From positions 1 through 29,608 of IMG/VR virus record IMGVR_UViG_3300009537_000120: a DNA stretch of 29,608 nt. The stretch is one strand, 5' to 3'. This DNA comes from a virus. The notes beneath the pieces were generated by a model. It did no database searches. It had not been told where the DNA came from and was given only the letters and a program-made list of their open reading frames with translations. The position numbers were made by a program, and so were the translations under genes. Of this stretch, positions 838-25,979 are shown one piece after another (position 1 is the first letter of the stretch; the number at the start of each line of letters is the position of its first letter).

Positions 838-846
838 ATTATACCA
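838..846 (-). promoter_or_regulatory. Extended -10 promoter (TGGTATAAT) directly upstream of the tail fibre ATG
   Basis: Read on the minus strand the sequence is TGGTATAAT, a perfect -10 box with the TGn extension. Six bases separate it from the ATG at 831, so transcription would start at or next to the start codon. No TTGACA-like -35 box is visible upstream. The same arrangement recurs at several other genes in this window. Confidence 0.6.
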
Positions 847-3800
847 TTATTTTAATGCTTTCACTTCTGCGATTGCTTGTTCTGTGGATATTGTTTTATC
901 CATTTTTAGCTTAATTGCAATCTCTGCAATTTCTTTTCTAGTTGCATCTTTGTTCTGTACCGCCTTTGCTGCTGCGTTATCGAAAGGAGTATAAGAGTCA
1001 TGTTCTGCGTTTGTAACTACAGACAAATTGTTTGCTGTTGAGTCTCCTCCTGCTTTGACTGGTACAATATGCTCTAGCTTATATTTCTTTGATTCACTCC
1101 AAGGAATACCGAGTTGTGCCATTGCCTTTTTCTTATATTCATCAGAACCTCCTGGTTTATCGTACTTAATCAAGTCAAATCGTTGCATCTCTACCAAGTT
1201 TCCTTCTACAATTCCTAGTTTAGCATTTGGGCCTAGTGCCTTCCAAAAGTTTCCATTATCAATCACAAACGCCTTTGACCAATCTCTTACTGCTTTCCAT
1301 TTTAGGAATGATTCAGACCTATCCTGTACATATTCAGTTGTTCTATCTCCTGGCTGATCTTGTGCTTTGTACTTCTTTAACTCTTTTGCAACATCATCAG
1401 ATGTCATCTGGCCAGCCTCTAGTTGTTTAATCATCTCCTTAGCGAAGTCTGCTGGTGGTAATGCCAGTCTGTCTTCCTTTTCATAGGACTCAATCTTCTT
1501 AATTTCTGCATCAAGATATTCCTTTGCAACAGCAGCACTACCAAACTCGCCAGACTTTAACTTATCCAGAACCTCTTGTGCTAGTTCCTTTCTTGTTTTC
1601 TTAACTGGTTGGAATCCTCCTTCTACGTATTCTTTACCAGCAGAAGTGGAATATGTCCCAAATAATCCAGCAAACAAGGTTTCTAATGCTCCGTCAATTA
1701 TAAAAGCTTTTTCTCCAGATGCTGACATTTGAAATCCTCGTACTTTAGCAATAATAGTATCTATAACCCTATTTAAAGTTGAAGCACCTCCTATACCAGT
1801 AAATCCAAATCCCCATTTTATAAATTGTTGTCTGAACTTATCGTAGTTTCCATACTTTACCCAGTTATTTATAGCTTTATATATATCATCCACCTCTCTT
1901 ACTATTGATATTGGACTTCTTCCAGAACCAGTTTCTTTGCCAGTTATCTTTTCAATTCCGTAGTCTACCAATGGTCCAGCAATTGGAATTACAGATCCTG
2001 GTGTGAATAATCTACGTTTTGTAAGTCTAGATTGCAACCAATCAAGTGCATACGTAGTTGAAAGATATACCAACCCCTGCAAGATTCTATTCTTTTTATC
2101 TAATGGTAATCCTCCTGGTAATCCAAACACGGTTTTACCAAATCTATAAGCTTCAAATGAATACGTTTGGAATGGTGCCAAGAATCTCACAACCAATGAT
2201 TTCAGTGCTTCTGGTCTAGCAGACTTTGTATATTCTGACTGTGTTGCTCCAATCATCAAATCAGCATAAGTATCTACAGCAGATCCTTTTAATCCTTGTT
2301 TTATTGCATAATCTCTGGCTATAAAAGCAGCATTTCTAGATAATACTTCTTCTACCCAATCACCAGCAAAACCAAGAGCTTTATCAACGGCTTCTCGTCT
2401 TGAACCGATAGTTGGTTTTATTCCAGGCTCACCAATATCTCCTATACCTGTTGAAGATAGTGTCTTTGTGGTTTTAATTCCATATGTTGGCAGTGATTGT
2501 AGCCACGCTTTATCTGCATCTGATAATCCAAACGAGTCACGTGTACCAGTAATAATGTTCATTCCTGGGTTTCTTCCATATGTTAAAGAAAGAGAAAGCG
2601 GTTGAACTGTTGCAGACCACGCAACGTTAAACGCAAGAGCTGCGGTTGATCTTGCCCCCATAATTGCCTGTGCCACATTTCCAAGGAAGTGGTCTTGTGA
2701 TTCTGGCTTTGTCATTTCTTTTATAAATCTATCCACAAACGCAGATCCTTTCTTTGTACCAAACTTCTTTCCAATTAATTTACCAAATTCATCAAGTTGC
2801 TGGTATGCTCCTTCCATAAACATTTTGTTTGAAACAGCGTTTACATATCCAGCAAGCAACTTACCAATATCTTTCTCTTGTTCTCCATACAAATCTCCAC
2901 CCTTTCTTTCTTTTAAGAATGAACTAGAAAAACCTATCTTTTCTGAAGGTGTAAAGGAGTCTTCGTATTTAATTCTCTTTGTTAAGTAATCGTCAATATG
3001 TCCCATTGGAGCCTGGTTAGTAGAAGCTAGCCACTGGTTTACTTTTTGGTAAATTGACTCTGTTACTTTTGTAATTTCTTTGTTTACTTCAGCTTGTTTT
3101 GGCGTAAGTTTTATGTCTTTGTTACCAAGCCTATATTCTGCAATTGCTTTTCTATCTACCTTATTTGTATTTCTAAAGGTTTTACCAAGATTTGATTCTA
3201 TGTCTTGTACAAACTTTATCTTTTGAGCAACTGCACCTTGATAATTTGTATAAGTCTTAACTGCTGGTCCCCAGTCTCCTTTCTTAGCCACATCTTGAAT
3301 TGTCATGTTATCCAAAGAAAACATTGTGTCTCTGATATTCAAAGACTTACCACCAGCAAGTCCACTTATGTCTCGTGGTTTATAGTCTTCAAAATCTTGC
3401 TTTGTTAGTGTTTTTTGTGGTACTCCAGGACCTGGTCTGTTGTTTTTAAGCACCTCCTTACTTAGATCAACGGTTTTGTCCTCAATGATTTGTACATCTC
3501 TCTTTACAACTTCATCTGCTATCTGGTCCGCTGTTTGTTGTAGTGATTGCTCTTCTGTGACGGGTGGATTTAGTTTGGCATTAGTCTTGAACTCACGAAT
3601 AGCAGCATTTACAGCTTTCTCATCAGCTTTTAGTTGTTTTTTTGCAGCAAAGAATTTTTGTATTTCATCTGCATAGTCCTGCGGATAACCACTTCCACCG
3701 TTGTTTTCCCACTCAACTAATCTGTCTGAAACTTCTTTAGCCAATTCTGGATTTTTAATGTTATCCAGCTCTCTCATACCGCCCTTTTTAAACAGTGCCT

Positions 3801-4860
3801 TGTTATTAGGATGATTAAACGGACTTTCCTCCATTGCTTGTTTTCTAATCTCTATTGCCATCTTTTCGTTTTGTAACGCTTGCGGTACTTCCGCCTTAAA
3901 TCCAACAGGCTTAACTCTCTGTGTAGATAGACCAAGTGCTGGTGTGGGTTCTGAAATATATCCAGGCAACGCTCCAGCAATACCACGCAGTTCTGGGGCA
4001 TTTGCAGCTGGTTTTAGGTCTGGTGCCAACATTCTATCAAGTGAACCTTTGATTGGTGTAAGTGGAGTTTCTCTTGTTCCAACTTCACCATATCTAATAG
4101 CACCAGAAGAAACTCTATCTGCTAGAGTTGGTATACCGTTCTTTCTAAGTGTTCGCATTTCATTATTCAAAAGTGAGAAAGATTCGTTGGACCCATAAGG
4201 TTTATCTGGATGAAGTTCTGATGCCGCTTTTCTGAAGTTAGCTTCTGCCTCTGCCATAGTTGACGGTTTTCCAAGCGAAGTCCACGCTTTAATTCCCTCA
4301 GATAGTCCTTTTCTGTTTAATACCGCAATCGTACTATTCAAAAATGACTTCAGAACATCAGCACCGACAATAGCATCTAGCGATTTTTCACTAGCCACCC
4401 TAAGCCCTGCGATAAAAGGATTCTCTCCACGATCTAGTGCAGCAGACATCTCACCATAAGCAGTTGAAACTGCTGGTGTATCATAGCCAAGAGTTCTAAC
4501 ATCTAATCCTGGGATTTTAAATTCTTTTTGTTTGTCTTGTCTAACAGCATTAAAGATTTCAGTACCAAGCGTAAGCACTCCTCGTGCTGGCATCTCTAGT
4601 CCCCTATATACAAATTCCTGTGCAGCTTTAGTTATTGGTGCTTCGTTAGACTTGTATGTTGTAGTTGAGAACGGAAGTCTGGTAGTAGTTGGTTGTGGTT
4701 TTGTTAAATAATCAGCAGCTTTTATAACCTGTTGACCTGGACCAATTAAAGTATTTTTTATAATACCAGCAGTAGAATTATCTGGTGCATCAAAAAAACC
4801 CTTACCCTTATCAAGGATACCTTGAGCTCCTTTTCTAATTAGGTCGAATGGTGATAACAT
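847..4860 (-). CDS. Large virion/ejection-type protein (1337 aa) with J-domain and C-terminal HNH motif
   Basis: This is the largest gene of the window and the probable DNA-ejection or internal virion protein of the particle. Residues about 187-240 look like a DnaJ J-domain: an acidic/alanine helix, the invariant HPD at 217-219, then a helix ending in NNEMRTL. The middle is long and helical, with patches such as GARSTAALAFNVAW and RFLAPFQTYSFEAYRFGK that recall large polyvalent phage proteins of the internal-virion type. The last 77 residues (from about 1261) contain LEHIVPVKAGG, then NNLSVVTNAEH and YTPFDN, an HNH-nuclease-like signature without visible zinc cysteines. It starts 6 nt after the stop of the coiled-coil gene, so the two are probably co-translated. 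J-domain and HNH are recognised by motif; enzymatic or chaperone activity is inference. Confidence 0.7.
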   Translation of the reverse strand: MLSPFDLIRKGAQGILDKGKGFFDAPDNSTAGIIKNTLIGPGQQVIKAADYLTKPQPTTTRLPFSTTTYKSNEAPITKAAQEFVYRGLEMPARGVLTLGTEIFNAVRQDKQKEFKIPGLDVRTLGYDTPAVSTAYGEMSAALDRGENPFIAGLRVASEKSLDAIVGADVLKSFLNSTIAVLNRKGLSEGIKAWTSLGKPSTMAEAEANFRKAASELHPDKPYGSNESFSLLNNEMRTLRKNGIPTLADRVSSGAIRYGEVGTRETPLTPIKGSLDRMLAPDLKPAANAPELRGIAGALPGYISEPTPALGLSTQRVKPVGFKAEVPQALQNEKMAIEIRKQAMEESPFNHPNNKALFKKGGMRELDNIKNPELAKEVSDRLVEWENNGGSGYPQDYADEIQKFFAAKKQLKADEKAVNAAIREFKTNAKLNPPVTEEQSLQQTADQIADEVVKRDVQIIEDKTVDLSKEVLKNNRPGPGVPQKTLTKQDFEDYKPRDISGLAGGKSLNIRDTMFSLDNMTIQDVAKKGDWGPAVKTYTNYQGAVAQKIKFVQDIESNLGKTFRNTNKVDRKAIAEYRLGNKDIKLTPKQAEVNKEITKVTESIYQKVNQWLASTNQAPMGHIDDYLTKRIKYEDSFTPSEKIGFSSSFLKERKGGDLYGEQEKDIGKLLAGYVNAVSNKMFMEGAYQQLDEFGKLIGKKFGTKKGSAFVDRFIKEMTKPESQDHFLGNVAQAIMGARSTAALAFNVAWSATVQPLSLSLTYGRNPGMNIITGTRDSFGLSDADKAWLQSLPTYGIKTTKTLSSTGIGDIGEPGIKPTIGSRREAVDKALGFAGDWVEEVLSRNAAFIARDYAIKQGLKGSAVDTYADLMIGATQSEYTKSARPEALKSLVVRFLAPFQTYSFEAYRFGKTVFGLPGGLPLDKKNRILQGLVYLSTTYALDWLQSRLTKRRLFTPGSVIPIAGPLVDYGIEKITGKETGSGRSPISIVREVDDIYKAINNWVKYGNYDKFRQQFIKWGFGFTGIGGASTLNRVIDTIIAKVRGFQMSASGEKAFIIDGALETLFAGLFGTYSTSAGKEYVEGGFQPVKKTRKELAQEVLDKLKSGEFGSAAVAKEYLDAEIKKIESYEKEDRLALPPADFAKEMIKQLEAGQMTSDDVAKELKKYKAQDQPGDRTTEYVQDRSESFLKWKAVRDWSKAFVIDNGNFWKALGPNAKLGIVEGNLVEMQRFDLIKYDKPGGSDEYKKKAMAQLGIPWSESKKYKLEHIVPVKAGGDSTANNLSVVTNAEHDSYTPFDNAAAKAVQNKDATRKEIAEIAIKLKMDKTISTEQAIAEVKALK

Positions 4861-4866
4861 GTTGTG

Positions 4867-6705
4867 TTAGTTAGATGCGTCTATCATTGATTGTAGATCT
4901 GCTATTAATGAAGCAGTATCTGTGGAGCTGGTTTCCTCATCAGCCTTAGTCAATGTTCCAGATGTTTGTTTATATCGCAAATGTTCTGGTAACCACTGGT
5001 CATCATTAGGATTAACCCATCTTTTTGGTGGGAACTTTGATAAGAACTCTGTTCTTGTACCGTTTGCTTGTATGAACTTATCATACATTTTTTTGTAGAA
5101 GTCAGGTGACAATTTTCCATCAGCACCAGCATTAGCCTCCATGACACCTTCCATGTTGGAAACTCCTCCTAGGGGATTAGCAACTCCAACTCCAGACAGT
5201 GATCCAGTCTTTCCTCTTTTTAAAACAACTCCACCCTCAATTGCACTACTAAAATCGTACGATGTAATTGTACTTGCCATTTTCTTTGCGTACTTCTCAG
5301 CATCAGACTTAGCTTCCTTTCGATATGATTCAGATAGAGTTCTAAATTCACTAGCGTATTTCTCAATTACCTTTAGAGCATTTTCATCAGCGTCATTTTG
5401 CAGTTTAACAATTTCCTTCCATGTGTCCTCTTCAGATTTTGACAGATCATTCTTAATCTTCCAAATGTCGTTGTCTCTATTAATATCAATATTATCTAGT
5501 TGTTCATCTAGTTTTATTTCAACCTCTCTATTGTAGAACTTGTACTTGGTTTGTAGTTCCTGTGACTGTTTCTGATACTTCTGTTCTAGAGTAGCAAGCG
5601 CAAGTGGTGCAGCACCAGTAGTCTTAAGTGCCCCCATCTTTGCCAACATTCCTGTCATGTAATTTTTAGCAGCTAGTCTGTTCTCTTCTATCTCATTGGA
5701 AGCTATTTGTAATTCGGCATTTGCTTTTTCTTTTGCAAAATCAGCCTGTGCTCGTAAGTTTTCCTTATCAAGTTTTGCCTCTCGTTCCTTAAGCTTGATT
5801 TGTTCCTCTTTCAACTTTCGCTCTTTCTCTAGGAATCCTATCTGGTCTTCTGTACCAAAGTAAGCGTCTTGATATGCTTTAGCAATACCATATTGCTGTG
5901 CTATTTGCTGTTGGTAAATTTGTTGTTCTGGGATAAGGGCTTCCATAGCCTTTTGTTGCTCTGGATTAGTAATTGCTCCAAGATATTGAGATATTTCCAT
6001 ATTGGAACCTGGTGTCTGTCCTATCTTAGCAGCAATAGCATTAGGATCTCCTCCCATTTGTTTGTACTGGTTCATTGTCTGTTGGAACTCTGGACTGGCC
6101 ATCGCAGCTTTGAACTGGTCTTGTGTTTGAAATTGCTTTGCGAATTGGTCTTCGTAAGATGTGACTAGGGCTTTGTTTGTGTCCTTTGTAGACATTGATG
6201 AGTTCCAGGGCTGATTAGTAGATTCATTAACACGAAATACAAGGTCATCAAATACCTTTTTGCTTCCTGCGATTGTCTGTGGGTCATATCCAAAGGACGT
6301 ATTGGCAGATATTTGTCCTAACTTACCTTCTTTGATTTGTTGAGCTTTGGCATTGGCTTGAGATTGTGTAAGACCAACAAACTCACTATCTGCCATTCCT
6401 TGCAGACCGTATGATTTTGCTAATGCAGACGACTTTGCAGCATTAAGAGTAGGCACTGGTGTATATCCACCATAGCCACCTAATACGTTTCCATATTCAG
6501 AAGCAGGTGCACCACCAGCAGCGTTATTAGCAAGAGTTTGTGCTTCTTTATCTGTTGGGACATATTCACCCTTTCCACCAGCACCATAATCCATAGTATT
6601 ACTAGCAAAAGTACCAGATTTAGATAGTTTCAGGTTAGTGCCTTTGTTCTTGTTGATCATCGCTAGGATGTCTTCGAGTTGTTTTGATGATAGGGTATTT
6701 GCCAT
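4867..6705 (-). CDS. Coiled-coil structural protein, probable internal virion/ejection protein (612 aa)
   Basis: No enzymatic motif is visible. The N-terminal third is Gly/Ala/Gln-rich and low in complexity (for example GGAPASEYGNVLGGYGGY), with several Gln-rich stretches. Residues about 280-345 form a strongly charged Lys/Glu coiled coil, and a second charged helical part lies near residues 370-470. Such Gln/Ala-rich helical proteins placed just upstream of a giant virion protein are usual for the internal or ejection proteins of podoviruses (P22 gp7/gp16/gp20 and T7 gp14/gp15 positions), and I infer that role. There is a 42-bp gap to the upstream LamG gene and only 6 bp to the downstream 1337-residue gene. 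The start follows AT-rich sequence (ATCAATATG) without a Shine-Dalgarno. Confidence 0.6.
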   Translation of the reverse strand: MANTLSSKQLEDILAMINKNKGTNLKLSKSGTFASNTMDYGAGGKGEYVPTDKEAQTLANNAAGGAPASEYGNVLGGYGGYTPVPTLNAAKSSALAKSYGLQGMADSEFVGLTQSQANAKAQQIKEGKLGQISANTSFGYDPQTIAGSKKVFDDLVFRVNESTNQPWNSSMSTKDTNKALVTSYEDQFAKQFQTQDQFKAAMASPEFQQTMNQYKQMGGDPNAIAAKIGQTPGSNMEISQYLGAITNPEQQKAMEALIPEQQIYQQQIAQQYGIAKAYQDAYFGTEDQIGFLEKERKLKEEQIKLKEREAKLDKENLRAQADFAKEKANAELQIASNEIEENRLAAKNYMTGMLAKMGALKTTGAAPLALATLEQKYQKQSQELQTKYKFYNREVEIKLDEQLDNIDINRDNDIWKIKNDLSKSEEDTWKEIVKLQNDADENALKVIEKYASEFRTLSESYRKEAKSDAEKYAKKMASTITSYDFSSAIEGGVVLKRGKTGSLSGVGVANPLGGVSNMEGVMEANAGADGKLSPDFYKKMYDKFIQANGTRTEFLSKFPPKRWVNPNDDQWLPEHLRYKQTSGTLTKADEETSSTDTASLIADLQSMIDASN

Positions 6706-9919: not shown

Positions 9920-10471
9920 TTATGAGTTAATAATTAATTCTTTAAGTTCAAAAACCATCTCCTTACTCTTTCGACCTTTTGGGTGATGTTTTTGACATAA
10001 TGTAATTCCATTATTTATGTTATATCTCAACTCAGGATATTCTTTCCAACTTAAGATGTGGTGCGATTCTAATCGCCCAGAACAATCACAATTATTTATT
10101 TTACACTTCCAATTATCCCTATTTCTGACGCTTATCATCCAAAATTTGTAATTTGAATCATAACCATGTTTTTCACTCATTTTTACCTGGTTTCTGTCTT
10201 TAATCCAATTAAAATGTTCTTCTCCTTTTGCTTTCAAGACCTCTTTTTTATGACAATCTATACATCTTGTATATGTATATGCAGATAATTGTTTTCCACA
10301 TTTGCATAAAGGCAACCCTCCTTTCCAATTCTGGTTCAAACTACCTCTTTTTAATCTTTGTGCTTCTTTTTTATGCTCTGGACAAGACTGAACACCTGTT
10401 AGTCCTTTATTCCAAGGGTCCCCGTTTCCGTTTGCTTTTCTTGTTATCCAACCTTGTTTTGTAATACCCAT
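9920..10471 (-). CDS. HNH endonuclease, free-standing homing type (183 aa)
   Basis: The N-terminus has a NUMOD3-like DNA-binding phrase (DPWNKGLTG, then PEHKKEAQRLKRG and NQNWKGG). A zinc-ribbon-like segment with CxC and CxxC pairs follows at about residues 57-74. The C-terminal half is a classic HNH module: a Cys pair in KCKINNCDC, LESHHILSW, then NNGITLCQKHH. All key histidines and the Asn are present, so it looks intact. It is inserted between two structural genes and shares no evident function with them, as expected of a selfish homing endonuclease. A shorter relative with an internal deletion lies at 12273-12467. Confidence 0.85.
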   Translation of the reverse strand: MGITKQGWITRKANGNGDPWNKGLTGVQSCPEHKKEAQRLKRGSLNQNWKGGLPLCKCGKQLSAYTYTRCIDCHKKEVLKAKGEEHFNWIKDRNQVKMSEKHGYDSNYKFWMISVRNRDNWKCKINNCDCSGRLESHHILSWKEYPELRYNINNGITLCQKHHPKGRKSKEMVFELKELIINS

Positions 10472-15071: not shown

Positions 15072-15242
15072 CTACTTTGTCTTTTTAGACACTCTTTTTG
15101 CTTTTGGTGCAACAACTTCTTCAGCTGGTGCAAAACCCAATCGTACCTTGTCTGCGTGTGAAAGTAATGCCATATTAGCAGATATAACTTTCAACTCCGC
15201 TTCTCCGATAGATTCTTTTTTTAACGCTTCTTGTAAATTCAT
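15072..15242 (-). CDS. Small protein, 56 aa, unknown function
   Basis: The open frame runs from ATG at 15242 to TAG at 15072-15074. The product starts MNLQEALKKESIGEAELKVI, continues with a helical stretch ending in HADKVRLGF, and closes with an Ala/Lys-rich basic tail (VVAPKAKRVSKKTK). A TGGTATAAT box lies 8 nt before the ATG, which supports expression. It sits between the basic 90-residue protein and the scaffold gene. Its family is not recognised; a small head-assembly or DNA-binding role would fit the basic tail but is not shown. Confidence 0.6.
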   Translation of the reverse strand: MNLQEALKKESIGEAELKVISANMALLSHADKVRLGFAPAEEVVAPKAKRVSKKTK

Positions 15243-15250: not shown

Positions 15251-15259
15251 ATTATACCA
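15251..15259 (-). promoter_or_regulatory. Extended -10 promoter (TGGTATAAT) upstream of the 56-residue gene
   Basis: On the minus strand the box reads TGGTATAAT and ends 8 nt before the ATG at 15242. The sequence is identical to the boxes before the fibre, portal and primase genes. It could start the transcript for scaffold and capsid, the most abundantly needed products. Confidence 0.55.
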
Positions 15260-16095: not shown

Positions 16096-17805
16096 TTATT
16101 GTTGTGTTGTTTGTTGCATTACTTGCTCATTGCTAAAAGGATTACCGTTTGCTTGGCCTGCTGGTGGTTTTGCACCTTCCTGTGTAGGGTCTTGTGCCAT
16201 TCCCATCTTTTGCTCTTCAAACTGGATGGCCTTGTCTATCTCCTCTCTTGTCCAGTCTCCTCCAAGTTCCAATTGTTTTTTCTTTGCAATCGTTAGTGCG
16301 ACAGGATTGTCTTGGAATGATACAATTATATACTGTGCTCGTTGTAGAGCAAACTGATCCAAAGCTTCTTGTTCAGCTTTCATTACAACTTGTACCTGAT
16401 AACCCTCTGGCATTTGCCATGCTGATGGATATACCTCCTTTTTGTACAAATCTCCATTACTTCCTTCTTTATACAATACAAGAGTTCCCTTCACATTGTT
16501 ATTCATCAAGTCATAAAATAGCTCACCAACCTCTTCCCACGCTCGTCTGTAGTGCTTTGATGATACTGAGTTTCGTCCTTGTGATTGTGATAGGTTCAAT
16601 TGAACCTCACCAAGTGTTGTTCGTGACTTTGTTTGCTCTCCTCTTTCTGTAGGTGTTTGGGCAACAGATGATTGAATCAAGTCCTTCAAGAATTGAATCT
16701 GTGCAGTCGTGTCATTCAACGGTTCAATTCGTACCTGTTGTAATATCTCTGCAGGATTTCCTGGAATACCGTACATACCGAATGGTTTAGGATCAAAGGC
16801 TTGTGGTCGGAATGTTCCGTTCATGGTGTTAAAGAAGTACATACCAAAGTTTCGATATGTTCTGTTCTCAAGGTCTTGTGACATGTACATATTCACAACC
16901 TTATTGATTGTTCGTACTGAGTCACCCTTTCCATCACACCAGATGTCATTTATATCTGGATCATCAGCCCAAGATACAATTGGTAATCGCTTTATTCCAA
17001 TAGCGTCCTCAAGTGGCTTGTTGTACAAAACAACCTTATCAGCAGCAATAATAATCAAATGTCTTACAAATTGGTTAATGTCAGCGTGCCATTGTAGTTT
17101 GTATGATTCGTTAATCTCAACCAATAACTCTGATGCATTGTAGTCATCAAAGTTTTGAGCTCCCAAGTTTCGTAATCTTTCAACCTTACTCAAATATGCT
17201 TCATAAGACTCACCAGACTTAATAACGCCCTCCTTGGAATCCAAGTACATCTTCAATTCCCTCTTGCCAGCAGAATCATACTTACTATTCGCCAATATCT
17301 CCCTCAAAGGCTTAAAGATATGTGTTCGGATAATATATTGTGCAGAGTTTAAATCAAGAGGATTCACTCTAGGAGACACCTCAATATCATATGGATCTAT
17401 AATATCTAGGAAGAAATCACCATTAGAAATACCAGCAATCTTAAATGATCGCCCCTGTAATCCAACAATCTTCTTATCGACATTATCAAGAATGTCTAGC
17501 TTCAACTTATCAAAGTAGTGGCCCCACATTTCATCAACAATAATCTCGCCATTTTTATGACGTGCTGTTCTGCCTCGTGATTTGAAGTGTAATTCTGGCG
17601 GTTCATCAATCTTGGAAATCCAAGTTTGAATAGTCTCCCGCATAATTGGGAGATTGATTGGTTGTCTTTGTGTTAATCTATTTGTGTCTACCTTATCTCT
17701 GTACAGAGAGTAGTTCTCATTCCACTGAGTAAATCTTCGACTTTTGAAGTCCTCCGATTCCCTCTTTTCCTTTGTGTGTTCACTTATTAATTTGTCTTTA
17801 TCCAT
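16096..17805 (-). CDS. Portal protein (569 aa)
   Basis: Size and wording fit a dsDNA-phage portal that forms the dodecameric channel for DNA entry. The N-terminus has FTQWNENYSLYRDKVDTN and the conserved helix around MRETIQTWISKIDEPPELHF. A typical central segment reads IKRLPIVSWADDPDINDIWC with GDSVRTINKVVNMYMSQDLE. A wing/clip part follows, and the C-terminal tail is Gln-rich (EEQKMGMAQDPTQEG to QQTTQQ). The Gln-rich tail recalls podoviral portals with C-terminal barrel extensions. It lies downstream of the terminase genes, as usual. Transcription may start at a TGGTATAAT box 25 bp upstream. Confidence 0.8.
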   Translation of the reverse strand: MDKDKLISEHTKEKRESEDFKSRRFTQWNENYSLYRDKVDTNRLTQRQPINLPIMRETIQTWISKIDEPPELHFKSRGRTARHKNGEIIVDEMWGHYFDKLKLDILDNVDKKIVGLQGRSFKIAGISNGDFFLDIIDPYDIEVSPRVNPLDLNSAQYIIRTHIFKPLREILANSKYDSAGKRELKMYLDSKEGVIKSGESYEAYLSKVERLRNLGAQNFDDYNASELLVEINESYKLQWHADINQFVRHLIIIAADKVVLYNKPLEDAIGIKRLPIVSWADDPDINDIWCDGKGDSVRTINKVVNMYMSQDLENRTYRNFGMYFFNTMNGTFRPQAFDPKPFGMYGIPGNPAEILQQVRIEPLNDTTAQIQFLKDLIQSSVAQTPTERGEQTKSRTTLGEVQLNLSQSQGRNSVSSKHYRRAWEEVGELFYDLMNNNVKGTLVLYKEGSNGDLYKKEVYPSAWQMPEGYQVQVVMKAEQEALDQFALQRAQYIIVSFQDNPVALTIAKKKQLELGGDWTREEIDKAIQFEEQKMGMAQDPTQEGAKPPAGQANGNPFSNEQVMQQTTQQ

Positions 17806-17830: not shown

Positions 17831-17839
17831 ATTATACCA
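17831..17839 (-). promoter_or_regulatory. Extended -10 promoter (TGGTATAAT) before the portal gene
   Basis: The minus-strand box TGGTATAAT lies 25 nt before the portal ATG at 17805. A TTGACA occurs only 13 nt upstream of TATAAT, too close for normal sigma-70 spacing. The expected leader of about 19 nt holds no Shine-Dalgarno. Confidence 0.5.
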
Positions 17840-17843
17840 CATT

Positions 17844-19044: not shown

Positions 19045-20331
19045 TTAAATTCCAAACTCCTCGTACATGGGGCGGTACCCTGATGACTGTTCTACTCGGT
19101 TGATAGATGCCGCTGTTATTGGCTTGTATGGTAGTTCCCATACAGCCAAGGCTAGTGACATCAGGTAATCATCATGCTTTCCGTCTGGCACCTGCATCCT
19201 TGTCTTTCCAGAGGGCATTATCTCATAATAACAACTTTCCAACTGCTCAATCAACTCAGGACAGTTGGGTATCTGTATCTTATTCTGCTCCAACAATATC
19301 TGTAAGTTTAGCAACAATTCCATCCTAGATTGCTGTGTGAATGTAAACGGTGTAATGTTTATCCCCTTATACAACAAATCATCCAATATCGGTTGCCCTA
19401 CTCCAGTAGCATCAAGTATCACTCTGGGTTTTCCAAGTCTAAGATACGTAGCCTCTATCCTCGCTTTCTGTAGGTTGTAGTCTATCTGATTGAAAGCCTC
19501 TGGCTCCAACACCTTAAACGTAGTTAAATCTATCGGTGTAAGCACCGTCCAGTCGTTTAACTTCGCAAGATCCACCCCTAACTGAAAGAAGTTGGCTTTT
19601 GGTTCGTAGGTGCCTTCGTATATCCTTGATTTTACATTCTTAAACACCGCCGCATCACTCTCCGTAAAGGCACACTCCCACTCCTGTTGATACAGTGCGT
19701 CTGGCATGTTCATCCGCTCCTCCTCCAGCACCTCCTCAGGTACCGCGCGAGTCTTAGACACTGGCAATATCTCCACGTGCCACTTTGGATTCTTCTGTGC
19801 TGCCTTCATCAGTGAGTATGCGTGGTTTTGTCCTCTGGGAGTAGTAACAAAAACCGCCCATCCACCGTTCTCCGCTAAAATAGGAGACAAAAGATTCCAA
19901 ACGTCAGGTTTCATCAGGGCATATTCGCTAAACACCACTCCAACAGGGTTAGTACCTACAATCCTGTCAATGTTATCAGCACCAACCATCTGCAATATAG
20001 AGCCATTAGTCAACTCTATCCTCATCTCCGTCTCATTCTTATCCTTCACGATCTGCGGAGGGAAGTGGTCCAAGAACCTAAACCCATCCTTATCCGCACC
20101 AGTCCATATAACCTTCTTCGCTTGGGTATATGTAGGTAGGAAATAGAAATAAGTACCCACTCTCTCCATCATTTTAGCAGGTAAATTGGCAAATATAGTC
20201 TTATCCTTCCCCGCACGCCTATGTGCAACGAAGAATATACGCTTAATATCATCACTTTCCCACGCCTTCAGTAAGGGAATCTGATATGGACGTGGTGTAA
20301 AGTGGTGTGGGAGGGTTACAATTTCACTCAT
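19045..20331 (-). CDS. terL: Terminase large subunit (428 aa)
   Basis: This is the packaging motor ATPase and headful or site-specific nuclease. The Walker A variant is at residues about 36-44 (AHRRAGKDK, the Arg-rich phage form). The Walker B strand VGVVFSEY is at 130-137, followed by the coupling TTP at 163-165. The RNase H-like nuclease domain shows its acidic residues at D254 (LGVDLAKLNDW), D307 (VILDATGVGQPI) and D387/D388 (GKHDDYLMSLALA). Length fits the family. A TATAAT box ends 6 nt before the ATG and overlaps the stop of the small gene upstream, so it probably has a leaderless promoter. Confidence 0.92.
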   Translation of the reverse strand: MSEIVTLPHHFTPRPYQIPLLKAWESDDIKRIFFVAHRRAGKDKTIFANLPAKMMERVGTYFYFLPTYTQAKKVIWTGADKDGFRFLDHFPPQIVKDKNETEMRIELTNGSILQMVGADNIDRIVGTNPVGVVFSEYALMKPDVWNLLSPILAENGGWAVFVTTPRGQNHAYSLMKAAQKNPKWHVEILPVSKTRAVPEEVLEEERMNMPDALYQQEWECAFTESDAAVFKNVKSRIYEGTYEPKANFFQLGVDLAKLNDWTVLTPIDLTTFKVLEPEAFNQIDYNLQKARIEATYLRLGKPRVILDATGVGQPILDDLLYKGINITPFTFTQQSRMELLLNLQILLEQNKIQIPNCPELIEQLESCYYEIMPSGKTRMQVPDGKHDDYLMSLALAVWELPYKPITAASINRVEQSSGYRPMYEEFGI

Positions 20332-20337
20332 AAACGT

Positions 20338-20343
20338 ATTATA
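20338..20343 (-). promoter_or_regulatory. TATAAT box 6 nt before the terL ATG
   Basis: The minus-strand TATAAT covers the last codons of the 57-residue gene, including its TAA stop, and is followed by 6 nt and the terL ATG. The TGn extension is absent here. Spacing predicts a transcript beginning at the ATG. Confidence 0.5.
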
Positions 20344-20512: not shown

Positions 20513-20680
20513 GTTTTATACAATTATCTACTAATAACCCTATTTTATCATCTTTTGTAAGAATATCAAGGTGATATGGAAAGTGAACTTTTTTGTATAT
20601 TTTTTTGTGATTTTTGAGGAGAAAATGGGCATTATTACACAAAAACAGCAGGAAAAAGGGTTTTAAGGGCCCCTCAAATC

Positions 20681-20705
20681 TTATACTCAGCTACGTTGAG
20701 TATAA
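20681..20705. repeat. Perfect inverted repeat, 9-bp arms, 7-nt loop
   Basis: TTATACTCA pairs exactly with TGAGTATAA across the loop gctacgt. No U-run follows on either strand, so it is not an obvious terminator. Its geometry is the same as that of the hairpin at 23658-23682 (9-bp arms, 7-nt loop), although the sequences differ. Confidence 0.7.
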
Positions 20706-20945
20706 CATTCGAGAGAGGTAAATTGCAAGTAAATCTATAGTTAGAATATGCGATTTGATAGCTGTCAAGTGGCTTATTTTGGATCTAATCGTGATTTGTA
20801 CTAGGTTCGGAGAAGGCGACTTTGAAAAAATGGTCTACAACTAAATTGGCCTATTTACTTATTCCTCAAGTAATTCTATTGGTGACATACCCCGTACCCT
20901 ATACCCTGTACTATATACATATAAATAAACAAATAAAATAAAGGA

Positions 20946-20961
20946 ACACACTATCGTGTGT
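20946..20961. repeat. Short inverted repeat ACACAC/GTGTGT
   Basis: Six-base arms ACACAC and GTGTGT flank TATC. It lies in the AT-rich part of the gene-free region and could form a small hairpin or a protein-binding site. Confidence 0.45.
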
Positions 20962-20994
20962 ACTACTATCTATATATAAATAAGAGAGTATATA

Positions 20995-21013
20995 TACTTA
21001 TGTATCATAAGTA
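20995..21013. repeat. Perfect inverted repeat, 8-bp arms, 3-nt loop
   Basis: TACTTATG and CATAAGTA flank TAT. The close arms resemble an operator for a dimeric regulator more than a terminator. It lies about 80 bp downstream of the terS stop on the minus strand. Confidence 0.5.
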
Positions 21014-21088
21014 CCACATATACAAAGACCATAAAGACAAGGTACTATATACCATATACAATGTTAGTACTCACAACTTACCATATAA

Positions 21089-21550
21089 CTAGTCTATCTC
21101 TACATCAATGACCTTATGCCCTTGACTAGGTTCTGTTTCTGTGTCATTGTATTTGATAATGTTTATCTGGACAGCTTGTGCCTTGTGCTTTTTTTCCTCT
21201 GAATACTTCGCTTTGGCTAGAGTCTTTGCTATAAACTTTGAAACATCAACTTGAAGCTTGGCAAGGTCTATGTTTTCCTTTTTATCGTCTGGAGTATCAA
21301 GTCGCAATTCAATTGTCGCATATCGCTTTAAGTTCTTTTCGCTAGCTTGTATCATTTCAACTGTATTTTGTAATGTTTCCGTTATCCAACTTGGCTTCGC
21401 ACCTGTTATAGCTCTCGCATAACTAGGTTTAAATCCACTTTCAACTGCTGACTGGTATAAATTACCAAATGTATTTGACTCTGGGTTAGTATAAAGCTTA
21501 ATACACTTCGCTTGTAATGGATTTTTAATCGTGCTTATTTTATTTGACAT
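21089..21550 (-). CDS. terS: Terminase small subunit (153 aa)
   Basis: The N-terminal half has the HTH layout of phage small terminases: NPLQAKCIKLYTNPES, then a helix-turn-helix phrase NLYQSAVESGFKPSYARAI and a third helix with GAKPSWITETLQ. A central helical oligomerisation region follows (KNLKRYATIELRLD to VSKFIAKTLAKAK), and the tail is acidic (HKVIDVEID). Length is typical. In the family this protein binds the pac or cos DNA and recruits the large subunit. Its gene is separated from terL by the palindrome-rich region and the small RHH-like gene. A TGATATAAT box ends 6 nt before the ATG. Confidence 0.7.
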   Translation of the reverse strand: MSNKISTIKNPLQAKCIKLYTNPESNTFGNLYQSAVESGFKPSYARAITGAKPSWITETLQNTVEMIQASEKNLKRYATIELRLDTPDDKKENIDLAKLQVDVSKFIAKTLAKAKYSEEKKHKAQAVQINIIKYNDTETEPSQGHKVIDVEID

Positions 21551-21556
21551 ATTATC

Positions 21557-21565
21557 ATTATATCA
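21557..21565 (-). promoter_or_regulatory. Extended -10 promoter (TGATATAAT) before terS
   Basis: The minus-strand TGATATAAT is followed by 6 nt (GATAAT) and the ATG at 21550, predicting a leaderless message. It faces the plus-strand early operon across a divergent gap of about 150 bp. Confidence 0.55.
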
Positions 21566-21645
21566 TTTAATCTCATTTATAACACTCTACACTTGACAAT
21601 TCCACCATTCTATGTACTAACTATAAACTGTGTATAACTTTATCG

Positions 21646-21674
21646 TTGATTTATTCTATCATTATGATATCATA
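21646..21674 (+). promoter_or_regulatory. Putative promoter with overlapping 12-bp palindrome for the plus-strand small-gene operon
   Basis: TTGATT at 21646-21651 and TATCAT at 21668-21673 lie 16 nt apart, an acceptable sigma-70 spacing though both are imperfect. A perfect palindrome TATGATATCATA at 21663-21674 covers the -10 box and could be an operator. The transcript would have a leader of about 20-25 nt before the ATG at 21703. Confidence 0.35.
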
Positions 21675-21702
21675 TAGTAGTTATAAGAATAACAATAATA
21701 AT

Positions 21703-21957: not shown

Positions 21958-21958
21958 T

Positions 21959-22174
21959 ATGATACACGACACACAAAAAAAGCATATAAGACTAGGTAAA
22001 GAAGAATTATATATTCCAACCTTTCACCACCTAGCAAAAATGATTTTAATCGCATTACTAATCGCAATAGCAATAGCACACCTGAACATAGCACAAGACC
22101 AGTTAAACCTAAACAAATGTATAGCATTTAACACCACAAGCGACCAAGTAGTTAATTGCTATTTTAACAGCTAG
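21959..22174 (+). CDS. Small single-span membrane protein (71 aa)
   Basis: A soluble basic/polar N-terminus (MIHDTQKKHIRLGKEELYIP) leads to one hydrophobic helix at about residues 28-41 (ILIALLIAIAIAHL) and a polar tail with two Cys. The start follows TAATATG, one base after the preceding stop. A membrane protein made early might alter the host envelope or act in superinfection exclusion, but no family is recognised. Confidence 0.55.
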   Translation: MIHDTQKKHIRLGKEELYIPTFHHLAKMILIALLIAIAIAHLNIAQDQLNLNKCIAFNTTSDQVVNCYFNS

Positions 22175-22222
22175 TTATCAGTTATCAAGCCTTTATGGGC
22201 TTGAAATACTGCTCACAAGCAG
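22174..22222 (+). repeat. Tandem GTTATCA heptamers and two adjacent hairpins in the 5' leader of the 65-residue gene
   Basis: GTTATCA occurs twice in direct tandem at 22174-22187. Then come TCAAGCC/GGCTTGA (22185-22191 and 22198-22204, 6-nt loop) and CTGCT/AGCAG (22209-22213 and 22218-22222, 4-nt loop). No U-run follows. Together they form a structured untranslated stretch of about 75 nt in an operon whose other gaps are mostly 1-5 nt, so a regulatory leader or a processing site is likely. Confidence 0.5.
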
Positions 22223-22248
22223 GAAAATTAATAAGTAATATATACAAT

Positions 22249-22446
22249 ATGAGTTATTACAAAGACATAGTAGAACAGGGCGATTATGTAGAAAAAGTTT
22301 TACTAAAAAAAGATGTATACAGCGAAGAGTTTTTGACAGCTTTTTATCAAATGTTAGAGAAGTTTGTCAATGAATACGACGATATGAGCCAAATGACAGC
22401 AATACAACAGGCGACAGCATTATTAGAAACATTTAACGATATGTAA
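22249..22446 (+). CDS. Small helical protein (65 aa), unknown
   Basis: The start at 22249 (ACAATATG) is preferred to an in-frame ATG at 22195, which lies inside the hairpin TCAAGCC/GGCTTGA. The product is helical and acidic (MSYYKDIVEQGDYVEKVLLK, then EEFLTAFYQMLEKFVNEYDD). No motif is recognised. The stop is followed by one base and the next ATG (TAATATG). Confidence 0.55.
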   Translation: MSYYKDIVEQGDYVEKVLLKKDVYSEEFLTAFYQMLEKFVNEYDDMSQMTAIQQATALLETFNDM

Positions 22447-22447
22447 T

Positions 22448-22771
22448 ATGGAAAAAATTTTACTAAATGTGTTTTATGAAGATACAACGAGGAAATTTTG
22501 GAGTGATAGTTATATCAAAAACAAGATTTTCAATGTAAAAAAAGATATAAATTCTACAATAGCCGACGCTTTATATGAAAATGACTTTATGGAAATGTCA
22601 TATAAAGGAAAACCCGTATCAACAATGTATTGTGATACAAAAAACGGGGAAACAAAAGCAGTTGGGTATATTTACAGAGTAAAGACAGAAATTGACGGAA
22701 AGAAAGCCTATTTTGATGCTTGGGTGGAGATTAACTCCGTAGAAGATTATAAGATTAAAGAATTAATATGA
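22448..22771 (+). CDS. Small protein (107 aa), unknown
   Basis: A mixed alpha/beta protein with phrases FYEDTTRKFWSDSYIKNKI and GKPVSTMYCDTKNGE, then YIYRVKTEIDGKKAYFDAWV, suggesting a beta-sheet C-terminal half. No catalytic motif, zinc ligands or membrane segment are visible. Its TGA stop overlaps the ATG of the next gene, which supports both. It is one of a run of tiny early-type genes whose functions cannot be read from sequence. Confidence 0.6.
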   Translation: MEKILLNVFYEDTTRKFWSDSYIKNKIFNVKKDINSTIADALYENDFMEMSYKGKPVSTMYCDTKNGETKAVGYIYRVKTEIDGKKAYFDAWVEINSVEDYKIKELI

Positions 22772-22941
22772 CCTACTACATAACAGCACAAGACCAGAAG
22801 AGCAAGGCGATAGTATCCGAGCTAGTAGCAGGAGAAAGCGAGAGAAAGGCAATTAACTTCTTTTTGGACTTACAAGTATCAAAGTACTGGGAGAGAAGTA
22901 TAAAGGACTTTATTATCAGAGAAGTAGAACTAATAAATTAA
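22768..22941 (+). CDS. Small protein (57 aa), unknown
   Basis: The frame opens in the ATGA overlap with the preceding gene and ends with TAA at 22939-22941. The product is helical and charged: MTYYITAQDQKSKAIVSELV, then a middle with ERKAINFFLDLQVSKYWERS and the tail DFIIREVELIN. No family is recognised. Confidence 0.55.
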   Translation: MTYYITAQDQKSKAIVSELVAGESERKAINFFLDLQVSKYWERSIKDFIIREVELIN

Positions 22942-22943
22942 AT

Positions 22944-23114
22944 ATGGAGAATAAAATACAACACGACCATAAGTGCGACATCTGTGGAGAACCAGCAACC
23001 ATAAACGCACAAGAAACAACAATATTCTACGAGATAGACAAAGACGGAAATTTTAGAGAGTACGACCAGAGTTGCAACGGAGATAATGAATTTTACTGCG
23101 ATAAACATAAATAA
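22944..23114 (+). CDS. Zinc-knuckle-like small protein (56 aa)
   Basis: The N-terminus holds a CxxC pair at residues 11 and 14 (HDHKCDICGEPAT). A later C44, and C52 with H55 (FYCDKHK), could complete a zinc site. Between them is a beta-hairpin-like stretch (TTIFYEIDKDGNFREYD). The start follows TAAATATG, two bases after the preceding stop. A small zinc protein of a phage early operon may bind a host protein or nucleic acid; the target is unknown. Confidence 0.6.
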   Translation: MENKIQHDHKCDICGEPATINAQETTIFYEIDKDGNFREYDQSCNGDNEFYCDKHK

Positions 23115-23115
23115 T

Positions 23116-23265
23116 ATGAAAATAACATCAATAATAGATATTGCTAGAAACTTAATACAAGCAATAGAGGAAGCAGGAATTGACACCGAAAATATCAGAC
23201 ACGAACTTTTTGACCTAGAAGAGTGGGCTAGAGAGGGGAAATTAGAAGAAAGAATAATAGATTAA
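23116..23265 (+). CDS. Small acidic helical protein (49 aa), unknown
   Basis: The open frame starts at the TAATATG junction one base after the zinc-knuckle gene and ends with TAA. The product has two predicted helices (IIDIARNLIQAIEEAGID and ELFDLEEWAREGKLEERI) and a net negative charge. Nothing is recognised. Its packing in the operon is the main support. Confidence 0.5.
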   Translation: MKITSIIDIARNLIQAIEEAGIDTENIRHELFDLEEWAREGKLEERIID

Positions 23266-23270
23266 ATAAT

Positions 23271-23450
23271 ATGAACAACGACCAACAAATAAAACATTAC
23301 CTGTATTGGATTATGAGAACAATGGGCTATATTACAGGCACAAAAGAAGAGATACAAAGCAAATACAAGGAGATTATGGAGAACGAATTATCAGAGGAAG
23401 TGTGCAACGAGATAGACGAGCTTGTAGCACATATTAAACTTAACTATTAA
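23271..23450 (+). CDS. Small helical protein (59 aa), unknown
   Basis: The frame begins after TAAATAATATG and ends with TAA at 23450. The product starts MNNDQQIKHYLYWIMRTMGY, has a KYKEIMENELSEE helix, and ends VAHIKLNY. It has no membrane segment or zinc ligands. The function is unknown, and the tight spacing (5 nt before, 2 nt after) supports translation. Confidence 0.5.
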   Translation: MNNDQQIKHYLYWIMRTMGYITGTKEEIQSKYKEIMENELSEEVCNEIDELVAHIKLNY

Positions 23451-23452
23451 AT

Positions 23453-23620
23453 ATGCAAGTACGAGAAATAATACCACTAATAGATAAAGGCCTTACATAC
23501 GGCCAAATAGCGACCAAGTACAAGGTGTCAGAAGCCACAGTCAACAGGTGGGTAAAGAGATTGAGAGAGGCAGGGTACGAGATCAAGAATAAAGCAGGAA
23601 GAAAGCATAAGCCACTATAA
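23453..23620 (+). CDS. Helix-turn-helix DNA-binding protein (55 aa)
   Basis: The protein is almost only an HTH domain. Helix one is in VREIIPLIDKG, helix two in TYGQIATKYKV, the turn is VSE, and the recognition helix is in EATVNRWVKRLREAG. A basic tail with KNKAGRKHK follows. The phrase resembles homeodomain-like HTH of resolvases and small terminases (HTH_23 type). As last gene of the early-type operon it may regulate the module, for example through the palindromes at 21663 or 23658, but the site is not shown. It ends just before the terminator region. Confidence 0.7.
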   Translation: MQVREIIPLIDKGLTYGQIATKYKVSEATVNRWVKRLREAGYEIKNKAGRKHKPL

Positions 23621-23621
23621 G

Positions 23622-23682
23622 TTATCAACAGTTGACAACTGGCCACTCAATTTGGTACTATGTACGAGCAAGCCGTACATAG
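23622..23682. promoter_or_regulatory. Intergenic DnaA-box-like site, short inverted repeat and strong 9-bp hairpin
   Basis: After the HTH gene come TTATCAACA (23622-23630, one mismatch to the DnaA box TTATCCACA), the inverted repeat CAGTTG-A-CAACTG, and a perfect hairpin CTATGTACG/CGTACATAG (23658-23666 and 23674-23682, 7-nt loop). The hairpin has no U-run, and the operon terminator is a separate structure 22 bp further on. These could be operators, a small RNA or a replication element. Confidence 0.45.
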
Positions 23683-23704
23683 CATCTAATGGCTAGAAAT
23701 AAGG

Positions 23705-23735
23705 AAAAAGCACCTCTCTCATCAGGTGCTTTTTT
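23705..23735. terminator. Bidirectional intrinsic terminator between converging operons
   Basis: An 11-bp stem AAAAAGCACCT/AGGTGCTTTTT with an 8-nt loop is flanked by A- and T-runs, so it can terminate from both sides. It separates the plus-strand small-gene operon from the ATPase gene, whose stop codon overlaps its left-reading end. Confidence 0.85.
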
Positions 23736-24999
23736 ATAACTCTCCAAACTCTTTTTCTGCTATCTCATCAAGCTCATCATCTTCTTCTGAACTAGCACCA
23801 CGATTTTTAATCTCATCAAAGTCTTTCTTCTTTTCTATTCTACGCACAAGGTCATAGTCCTCCTTGTTTACAAAAGCCCAACTCAATCCTCGTCCCTCAT
23901 CACTCCCAGAACGATCCAGAACTCCGACAGCAGACAGGTTTTGTAGGAAGTTTCTTACAATTGTAGTATCAAGACCAACCCTGTCAGCGATTGCAGATGT
24001 AGAAAGCTCTCGGTCAAACTCCACAGAGGCCAATATAGACAGGCACTTTCGCTTTTCTTCATTCGCCAGAGAGTAGCCACACCAGTCAATTGTAGAAAGA
24101 TCATTTTCATCAAGCTCCATAGAGCCAGTATCGTGAAGTTTCATGAGCATAAGAGCTTTGACAACTGTTGCAAGTTGCATAGCAACACGAGTGGGCTTTG
24201 CAGGTATTGGTATTCTGGTAATCTTTTTGTCAGAGGTAAATTTGTCCGTGTGTGCAACTGTTCTAACTCTTTCAGCAAAGGAGGACACCTCAATAATTCT
24301 CTCAATAATATATTCTGGTATATCAAAATGTTCTGTTGGAGCATTGACCACTACATCTTTTATATATTCAGCGTACTTGTCAGCTAGTTCTTGATCCAAC
24401 TCACGACCTATCTTGCTCCTAGTCAGAGCTAGTCGAGTGGACTTGTTGCCGTCAAACTCTTTCATACGATAATAGACAAACCTCTCTCCCATTTCCGAGG
24501 CCTCCTCAAACATAGAATATACAGAAGGAGTTGAACCAGAAATAACACCAACATAACCCTGCCAACGCAGAGGTTCTGGCGAGTTTCCAGCGTGCTTGAT
24601 CATCTCTCCGTCATATACCATACGAAACTGAGATAGAATTGCAGACTTGCTTTCTGAACTCTTGGACATAAGCACAGTCATATCTGATATGGCCAACATT
24701 CCGTGATCTCCTATCTTCTTCAAAAGTGATACTTCTCCATCACCCTTTTTTTTCATAGCAGAGAGCAGAGTGTTCTCGGTCATATCATCAAGTCTATGTA
24801 TAAATTTCCTGTCGGTCATTGAAAGTGGACGAATGATCTGGGACTTTCCACCAGACGAAGCTCCAATGATAATAAACCAGAGAGGTTCACCTAACTTCAA
24901 ACGAGTTGCAATTATAGAGGCAACGGACATATCTATAATGTTAGTATCTTCTAAATACTGGTACTTCTGTATCTCGTTTTTTAAATCTTGCAGATTCAT
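23734..24999 (-). CDS. AAA+-like replication ATPase/helicase with C-terminal winged helix (421 aa)
   Basis: Walker A is GASSGGKS at residues 46-53. A Walker B-like strand MLAISDMT lies at 101-108 with D106, and a sensor-like phrase VGVISGSTPSVY and an Arg-bearing strand GERFVYYRM follow. The C-terminal third has a winged-helix-like region (TSAIADRVGLDTTIVRNFLQ) and an acidic tail (SEEDDELDEIAEKEF). The gene overlaps the primase stop (ATGA), so a primase-helicase pair is likely. The ATPase could be the replicative helicase or a helicase loader. The family was judged by motif only. Confidence 0.65.
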   Translation of the reverse strand: MNLQDLKNEIQKYQYLEDTNIIDMSVASIIATRLKLGEPLWFIIIGASSGGKSQIIRPLSMTDRKFIHRLDDMTENTLLSAMKKKGDGEVSLLKKIGDHGMLAISDMTVLMSKSSESKSAILSQFRMVYDGEMIKHAGNSPEPLRWQGYVGVISGSTPSVYSMFEEASEMGERFVYYRMKEFDGNKSTRLALTRSKIGRELDQELADKYAEYIKDVVVNAPTEHFDIPEYIIERIIEVSSFAERVRTVAHTDKFTSDKKITRIPIPAKPTRVAMQLATVVKALMLMKLHDTGSMELDENDLSTIDWCGYSLANEEKRKCLSILASVEFDRELSTSAIADRVGLDTTIVRNFLQNLSAVGVLDRSGSDEGRGLSWAFVNKEDYDLVRRIEKKKDFDEIKNRGASSEEDDELDEIAEKEFGEL

Positions 25000-25910
25000 A
25001 TCATTTTATTTAATTCCTCAACAGCCGTCTTGAAATCACAACCATTCAACTGTTGATAAAGGTCAATGCTATCGGCAACTTTTCCACAGCCGAAGCAGTA
25101 GCAGGAATTAGTTTTTTTGAAATAAGTAAAAGATCCAGTCTTCTCATTATGATAAGGGCAACGAGCTTTGTCATTTTTAAACTCCATAAGATTTATGGCT
25201 GGGTACATTTTTGCATTTGAAACATTATCAGAGGAAAATGTTTGTTGTGCTTTTGGAAGTTTGTTTACTTTTGTATGTTCTTTGATAAACGCCTCGTGGA
25301 AAAAAACAGACTGATACAAAGCAACACGACTGCTTCTGTCTTCTTTAACGGCTTCAATGGTATTTAAACTTTTTGCTGTCTTTAATAATGAATGTAAATC
25401 TCCACCAGAAACAACATAATCAGAAATGTCCTTTATGTTTGCTCTATCTGGAATTAATAGTATTTTTGCTTGTGGTATAAAGGACAAAACTTTTACCATT
25501 CCATTTGCCCCAGCTTCATCATTATCAAAACAAATAATAACTTCTTTATCTTTAAAATATGTTGCCCATTCTTCTTGAAAAGATAATGCTCCACCTGTAC
25601 TCGTAACTGCAGGAATATTATGCGACCAAGCAACAAGGCAATCTTTTTCTCCCTCACATATTAAAATAGTTTTGTGTTCTTTGGCTTTGTGCATTCCGTA
25701 CAACATAACCTTTCCACCTTTGTCATACCAGTATTTTGGCTTGTCATCTGATAAAGGATTTCTTCTGTACTTATTAAAAGAAAAATTCCCGTCTATATCA
25801 TAAACGGGGATCACTATGTCATCAGTAAAAGAAATATTAAAGTCCTCTTGAACTTGTGGAGTTATCTTGTTGGTATTTAACCAATCACTAAACACTTTAT
25901 GAAATTGCAT
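24996..25910 (-). CDS. Primase-like protein with N-terminal TOPRIM and C-terminal CHC2 zinc domain (304 aa)
   Basis: The start at 25910 is chosen because a TGGTATAAT box ends 6 nt before it; an upstream ATG at 25949 would lie inside the promoter. Residues 30-75 resemble the T7 gp4/Twinkle-type N-terminal strand region (VIPVYDIDGNF and KPKYWYDKGG). TOPRIM follows with EGEKDC at 86-91 and the acidic DNDEAG at 129-134. At the C-terminus is a DnaG-like zinc domain: CPYHNEKTGSF (C251, H254) and CYCFGCG (C272, C275). In DnaG and T7 gp4 the zinc domain comes first, so the order here is reversed. The downstream ATPase overlaps by ATGA. Confidence 0.75.
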   Translation of the reverse strand: MQFHKVFSDWLNTNKITPQVQEDFNISFTDDIVIPVYDIDGNFSFNKYRRNPLSDDKPKYWYDKGGKVMLYGMHKAKEHKTILICEGEKDCLVAWSHNIPAVTSTGGALSFQEEWATYFKDKEVIICFDNDEAGANGMVKVLSFIPQAKILLIPDRANIKDISDYVVSGGDLHSLLKTAKSLNTIEAVKEDRSSRVALYQSVFFHEAFIKEHTKVNKLPKAQQTFSSDNVSNAKMYPAINLMEFKNDKARCPYHNEKTGSFTYFKKTNSCYCFGCGKVADSIDLYQQLNGCDFKTAVEELNKMI

Positions 25911-25916
25911 ATAAAA

Positions 25917-25925
25917 ATTATACCA
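25917..25925 (-). promoter_or_regulatory. Extended -10 promoter (TGGTATAAT) of the primase gene
   Basis: The minus-strand TGGTATAAT ends 6 nt before the ATG at 25910. Its mirror partner serves the divergent helicase (25971-25979), and ATACCATAT/ATATGGTAT form a 9-bp inverted repeat around the shared control region. A DnaA-box lies just upstream, where a -35 box would be. Confidence 0.6.
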
Positions 25926-25933
25926 TATTGTAT

Positions 25934-25961
25934 TTATCCACAACCCCAAACCTGTGGAAAA
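25934..25961. promoter_or_regulatory. Inverted pair of DnaA-box-like sites between divergent primase and helicase promoters
   Basis: TTATCCACA at 25934-25942 is a perfect DnaA box. TGTGGAAAA at 25953-25961 is the reverse of TTTTCCACA, which also fits the loose consensus TTWTNCACA. The two face each other across 10 bases between the two -10 boxes. DnaA or a phage protein could use them for origin function or promoter control. Confidence 0.55.
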
Positions 25962-25970
25962 CTTTTGATA

Positions 25971-25979
25971 TGGTATTAT
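25971..25979 (+). promoter_or_regulatory. Extended -10 promoter (TGGTATTAT) of the SF2 helicase gene
   Basis: TGGTATTAT ends 8 nt before the ATG at 25988, one mismatch away from the consensus used elsewhere. Its use explains why the earlier ATGs at 25928 and 25970 are unlikely starts. Confidence 0.5.

Follow-up and report, generated by a model that had tools for sequence, protein, structure and literature searches.

Why does a phage place the same promoter-like hexamer almost against the start codons of genes that have nothing else in common? The question is raised by the virus record IMGVR_UViG_3300009537_000120, analysed here in full (29,608 bases, hereafter the window), in which TATAAT or a close variant precedes the ATG of several unrelated genes. 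The first-pass annotation had listed seven such boxes, all of which we find where it placed them and at the spacings it gave (6, 8 or 25 nt from box to ATG, with the box of the terminase large subunit gene, terL, devoid of a TGn). We argue below that these are very probably leaderless-type promoters, that is, sigma-70 -10 boxes set close to the AUG of genes whose starts are free of a Shine-Dalgarno (SD) sequence, with internal genes read by coupling, and that the arrangement was probably inherited from the host.

Counted over the whole window the motif is unremarkable, as bare TATAAT occurs 34 times where 30.8 are expected, which is no enrichment, and 9 of 100 shuffles contain a loose TATAAT-N4-10-ATG pattern at least as often. 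Both counts are what one would predict if the boxes were accidents of an AT-rich genome full of TATAAT and of stop codons such as TAA lying just before starts, and the terL box does overlap the stop codon of a small open reading frame (ORF) upstream. As counts over the window are uninformative, the telling comparison is that of gene starts with other ATGs: exact TATAAT at a gap of 6-8 nt precedes five of the 40 gene starts and only two of 889 other ATGs (one-sided Fisher test, 2.3e-6), and when the upstream regions were dinucleotide-shuffled 2000 times, five was never reached (mean 0.32, maximum 3; four starts were placed 1-2 nt off in this run, and the five positive genes are unchanged with corrected starts). 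The enrichment at 6-8 nt over controls that the first-pass annotation had implied is thus borne out. The window has five TGnTATAAT strings, each of them in front of a gene start. A general promoter scan of the window came out near the shuffle level (78 found, 65.6 expected) and served only to locate the candidate at 28166-28193.

The protein encoded at the portal position is common in IMG/VR and, being so widely shared, allows an idea born in the window to be tested in other sequences. Across 521 distinct starts of close relatives, a set from which the window was excluded, TATAAT is absent at gaps 4 and 5, appears 14 times at gap 6, and then 3, 9, 8, 5 and 7 times at gaps 7-11, giving 46 occurrences at gaps 6-11 over a background of 0.56 per position further upstream. 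A motif search at fixed ATG spacing in relatives had been proposed as a check, and this peak at gap 6 is what it returned. The reverse complement of the hexamer, taken as a control, gives a flat profile, and AT-rich contigs from unrelated viruses show an SD signal and not one TATAAT at gaps 6-11. An unbiased 6-mer scan of the phages likewise places TATAAT at gap 6 among the top words, the others being A/T-rich words beside the ATG. Taken with the TGn and the TTGACA at a spacing of 17 that accompany the boxes (see below), these positional statistics (the difference between gene starts and other ATGs, the recurrence of the peak without the window, the empty gaps 4-5, the flat control and the lack of a peak in unrelated contigs) refute chance as the source of the boxes, and we assign it next to no probability. 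GenBank phages yielded no relative of the portal-position protein, and their TerL matches all fall below 60% identity.

The neighbourhood of the boxes indicates what kind of signal they are. Over the whole set of 715 starts, window included, TGn precedes TATAAT in 41 of the 53 boxes at gap 6-11, and an exact TTGACA accompanies 14 of the 53, every one at a spacer of 17; allowing at most one mismatch raises this to 17 boxes, at spacers of 16-17, whereas shuffles give an expectation of 0.05 perfect TTGACA at spacers 15-19. TGn together with TTGACA at 17 is the grammar of a primary-sigma promoter and not of a translation signal, and judged by these elements the boxes belong to sigma-70-type promoters, for the most part extended -10 ones. 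No TTGACA-like -35 is evident at the boxes of the window itself; TGn is present at all those listed in Table 1 except that of terL, and at the helicase gene it precedes TATTAT, the best hexamer there and a 5/6 match to TATAAT. A different reading would make the A/T-rich stretch a translational enhancer, either a site for ribosomal protein S1 or an unstructured start region, and no promoter at all. A/T-rich start regions of non-SD genes have been discussed in both of these senses (PMC5397173), and these phages do show a strong enrichment of A/T-rich words just before the ATG. However, a translational signal would need neither TGn nor a TTGACA exactly 17 nt upstream, and the stretch is largely missing before the major head genes in these phages, only 1 of 37 having TATAAT within 44 nt. 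We consider an enhancer very improbable.

If the boxes are promoters, where would their transcripts begin? Of the 31 boxes at gap 8-11, 27 are followed by an A at the seventh base, as against 9-18 at the flanking positions (two before and three after it). When this conserved A is read as the transcription start, gap-6 transcripts begin on the A of the AUG itself and those from gaps 8-11 carry leaders of 2-5 nt; at the 56-residue gene of the window the seventh base is again A, predicting a leader of 2 nt. The mechanism that we propose is that a polymerase carrying the primary sigma factor would initiate 7 nt past the box, which at gap 6 is the A of the AUG and at gaps 7-11 a position a few nucleotides before it, so that the resulting messages would be leaderless or have leaders too short to hold an SD site. 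The 5'-terminal AUG would then be recognized directly, probably by 70S ribosomes, which is how leaderless messages are typically translated (PMC9031893). The reading of the boxes as leaderless-type promoters made in the first-pass annotation is supported; at gap 6 the message should be truly leaderless, at gaps 8-11 short leaders are predicted, and the portal gene with its gap of 25 would be leadered.

It might be objected that the promoters are real and the messages not leaderless, either through transcription starting further upstream or through processing. Some promoters are indeed leadered, such as those of the portal gene (gap 25) and of the gene at 27634-28134 (gap 31), and the distance of the portal box from the ATG drifts in relatives between 6 and 40 nt. 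Yet a start 7 nt past the box agrees with the gap-6 peak, with the lack of boxes at gaps 4-5 and with the A conserved at the seventh base, and although further promoters could add longer transcripts, the SD core that would make use of them is absent. An upstream start is therefore, to our mind, unlikely, if less so than an enhancer, and leaderless or nearly leaderless messages remain the preferred interpretation.

The single rigid distance between -10 and ATG that had been claimed for this phage does not survive, as the boxes nearest to their starts lie at 6-8 nt in the window and, in relatives, at 6-11 nt with a tail to 40. The spacing is better described as a lower bound of 6 nt with an upward spread. 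Gene by gene, portal boxes are present in 28 of 52 distinct upstream regions, at gaps of 6 to 40 (16 of them at 6-11); terS boxes lie at 6, 6, 9 and 9 in four phages, the relatives L001, L003 and L021 having 34-47% protein identity to the window; terL boxes lie at 6, 6, 8 and 10 (in relatives, L001/L002 at 6, L021 at 8, L098 at 10); and boxes of the 56-residue gene lie at 6, 6 and 8 (the homologues in L086 and L054 at 6).

The lack of SD sequences is just as consistent. None of the 40 gene starts of the window has an SD core between -16 and -5, and in the close relatives SD cores are rarer than background, being found near 3.1% of starts as compared with 9.0% of control positions. Twenty-two of the 40 starts in the window lie at -4 to +10 nt from the preceding stop codon, which is what coupled reading of internal genes would predict; these genes, abutting the stop before them, would be translated by termination-reinitiation. 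A few promoters would give longer leaders that nevertheless contain no SD: the portal gene of the window is leadered by the position of its box, yet is without SD, and a candidate of the same kind, leadered and SD-less, stands before the gene at 27634-28134.

The pattern is not confined to phages. When stretches from 26 Patescibacteria genomes are pooled (726 starts, the stretch sampled from each host being small), TATAAT is found 13 times at gap 6 and 6 times at gap 7 over a background of about 0.7, alongside an SD peak, and it is the top word, at gap 6, of an unbiased 6-mer scan. Genomes G008 and G040 lack an SD peak and have boxes at gap 6-9, and in G373, which bears a prophage, four of 129 starts follow TATAAT at gap 6. 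With a similar pattern in the probable host phylum, the boxes look like a trait of host expression and not a peculiarity of the phage.

What links this phylum to the phage is the portal-position protein. A scan of 84,980 species found relatives of it in three genomes: the Patescibacteria genome AH-259-L07, presumably a single-cell genome, going by its name; nzgw467, a metagenome-assembled genome (MAG) of the same phylum; and an archaeon-named MAG. One further case, G373, came from a separate draw of 380 Patescibacteria genomes; its assembly has five contigs, and within one of them, of 149 kb, genes for portal, TerL and an integrase lie as a prophage. This prophage (L252:11547-12536 and L252-L253; G373 C1, about 31.5-53 kb) is a candidate system for work on the host. 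From these matches, and from the start patterns above, the host of the phage is probably a member of the Patescibacteria.

A number of observations weigh against this overall interpretation. The host-linked relatives are all distant (portal 35-42% identity where reported, 37-42% for the three Patescibacteria genomes), and the links to Patescibacteria (the single-cell genome with L050, the G373 prophage and L049/G002) concern only such distant relatives, none of them this phage or its close relatives. The distant group itself shows little signal, with 2 TATAAT boxes at gap 6-11 among 177 genes, and SD at 11% of starts versus 6% of control positions; as the three Patescibacteria genomes hold only members of this group, with its weak TATAAT signal and some SD, the host of the close group is something that we infer. 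One portal relative (35% identity, match at 4769-6463 of the 6,702-base contig L048) belongs to the archaeon-named MAG ARS1334, of another phylum; L048 was either binned wrongly or comes from a related archaeal virus. The genomes drawn from its phylum all lack bacterial ribosomal protein L27. Patescibacteria genomes also differ among themselves, SD cores being present at 71% of the starts of G029, and a first small sample in which AH-259-L07 appeared to be without SD was overturned by a larger one with a clear SD peak. All complete, readable 3' ends of 16S rRNA keep CCTCC, in SD-type and SD-poor genomes alike and G008 included (a reading that leaves out G029, which was unreadable, G040, whose 16S is truncated, and AH-259-L07 and others, which had no 16S match), so the SD route has not been lost from the ribosome. 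Finally, gene starts were taken throughout as first ATGs, some of which may be wrong. Separately, the 16S rRNA of G053 C3 (L203, L205) falls into two overlapping pieces spread across some 3 kb, hinting at an insertion or an intron.

With these points in mind we put forward only tentatively, as a proposal that may well prove wrong, the broader generalization that in the phage lineage and in some Patescibacteria, probably its hosts, translation starts almost without SD, through leaderless messages or leaders of 1-5 nt and stop-start reinitiation at internal genes, although the ribosome keeps its anti-SD.

Leaderless genes with a -10 at such a distance are well described in Actinobacteria, Deinococcus-Thermus and others (PMC3160421, PMC12340547), and in the part of the open-licence literature available to us we found no description of them in Patescibacteria or the candidate phyla radiation. 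The TA-led leaderless genes of bacteria, in which TANNNT precedes the start by about 10-12 bp (Zheng et al. 2011, PMC3160421), resemble the present case in having a Pribnow-like signal at a leaderless distance, no SD and the same proposed mechanism; that work is a survey of cellular genomes, in whose text no candidate-division or TM7 term was found, whereas here the signal belongs to a phage lineage and Patescibacteria, is extended by TGn and coincides with SD below background. In Deinococcus-Thermus, a -10 about 6-7 bp before the ORF leads to leaderless mRNA, as supported by a transcriptome and expression tests (PMC12340547). The -10 adjoins the ORF in both cases, but there it is TANNNT, often TACACT, in company with SD genes, while here it is a near-perfect TATAAT with TGn, at gaps 6-11, in an SD-poor phage known from sequence alone. 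In PMC7403470 (citing Berdygulova 2011 and Tagami 2014), the middle and late promoters of Thermus phage P23-45 are placed in the extended -10 class, which makes it likewise a phage with extended -10 promoters of the host polymerase, unlike ours in that the sigma-remodelling protein gp39 favours these promoters; a counterpart of gp39 was not sought here. The relation between the two phages amounts to 25% identity in TerL and nothing beyond. Middle and late transcripts of P23-45 are reportedly leaderless.

Table 1. Boxes, promoter candidates and genes of the window (gap, nucleotides from box to ATG)
Feature	Coordinates	Strand	Remarks
Extended -10 TGGTATAAT	838..846	-	gap 6 to ATG at 831 of gene 1-831
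Extended -10 TGGTATAAT	15251..15259	-	gap 8 to ATG at 15242 of 56-aa gene
Extended -10 TGGTATAAT of portal gene	17831..17839 (TATAAT 17831-17836)	-	gap 25 to ATG at 17805
-10 TATAAT, without TGn	20338..20343	-	gap 6 to terL ATG at 20331
Extended -10 TGATATAAT	21557..21565	-	gap 6 to terS ATG at 21550
Extended -10 TGGTATAAT	25917..25925	-	gap 6 to primase ATG at 25910
Variant extended -10 TGGTATTAT (TATTAT)	25971..25979	+	gap 8 to helicase ATG at 25988
Candidate promoter TTGACA-16-TACACT, TG before second hexamer	28166..28193	-	31 nt before ATG at 28134
Gene behind first box	1..831	-	3' end cut off by window; weak profile matches only
56-aa gene	15072..15242	-	behind box 15251..15259
Portal-position gene, 569 aa	16096..17805	-	conserved in viral family studied; "portal" is the name given in the first-pass annotation
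Terminase large subunit (terL)	19045..20331	-	
Probable terminase small subunit (terS)	21089..21550	-	profile match E 3e-4
DNA primase	24996..25910	-	profile match E 1e-31
DEAD/ResIII-type helicase	25988..27229	+	

As to the genes themselves, the name "tail fibre" earlier given to the gene at 1-831 finds no support in its profile matches, which are weak, and the portal-position protein has no profile match in PHROGs. The primase and helicase genes are served by divergent promoters within 77 shared bases (25911-25987), both boxes being of the TGGTATNAT form. Amid the structural genes, one at 9920-10471 has HNH endonuclease profile matches and is a possible homing endonuclease, and 576 bases (20513-21088) between terS and the small ORF upstream of terL have no assigned gene. 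Scans of the window for Rfam families and for tRNAs found nothing.

Translation initiation in the Patescibacteria, a very large and mostly uncultured group, appears to have been little described. The promoter grammar at the gene starts of this phage would provide a clean set of predicted leaderless starts, which could improve the annotation of start codons in SD-poor genomes, a setting in which gene finders dependent on SD motifs can fail. The gene starts of a phage may also hint at which host lineages are able to express it, and those found here would be ready constructs for asking how reduced ribosomes that carry an anti-SD pick their start codons.

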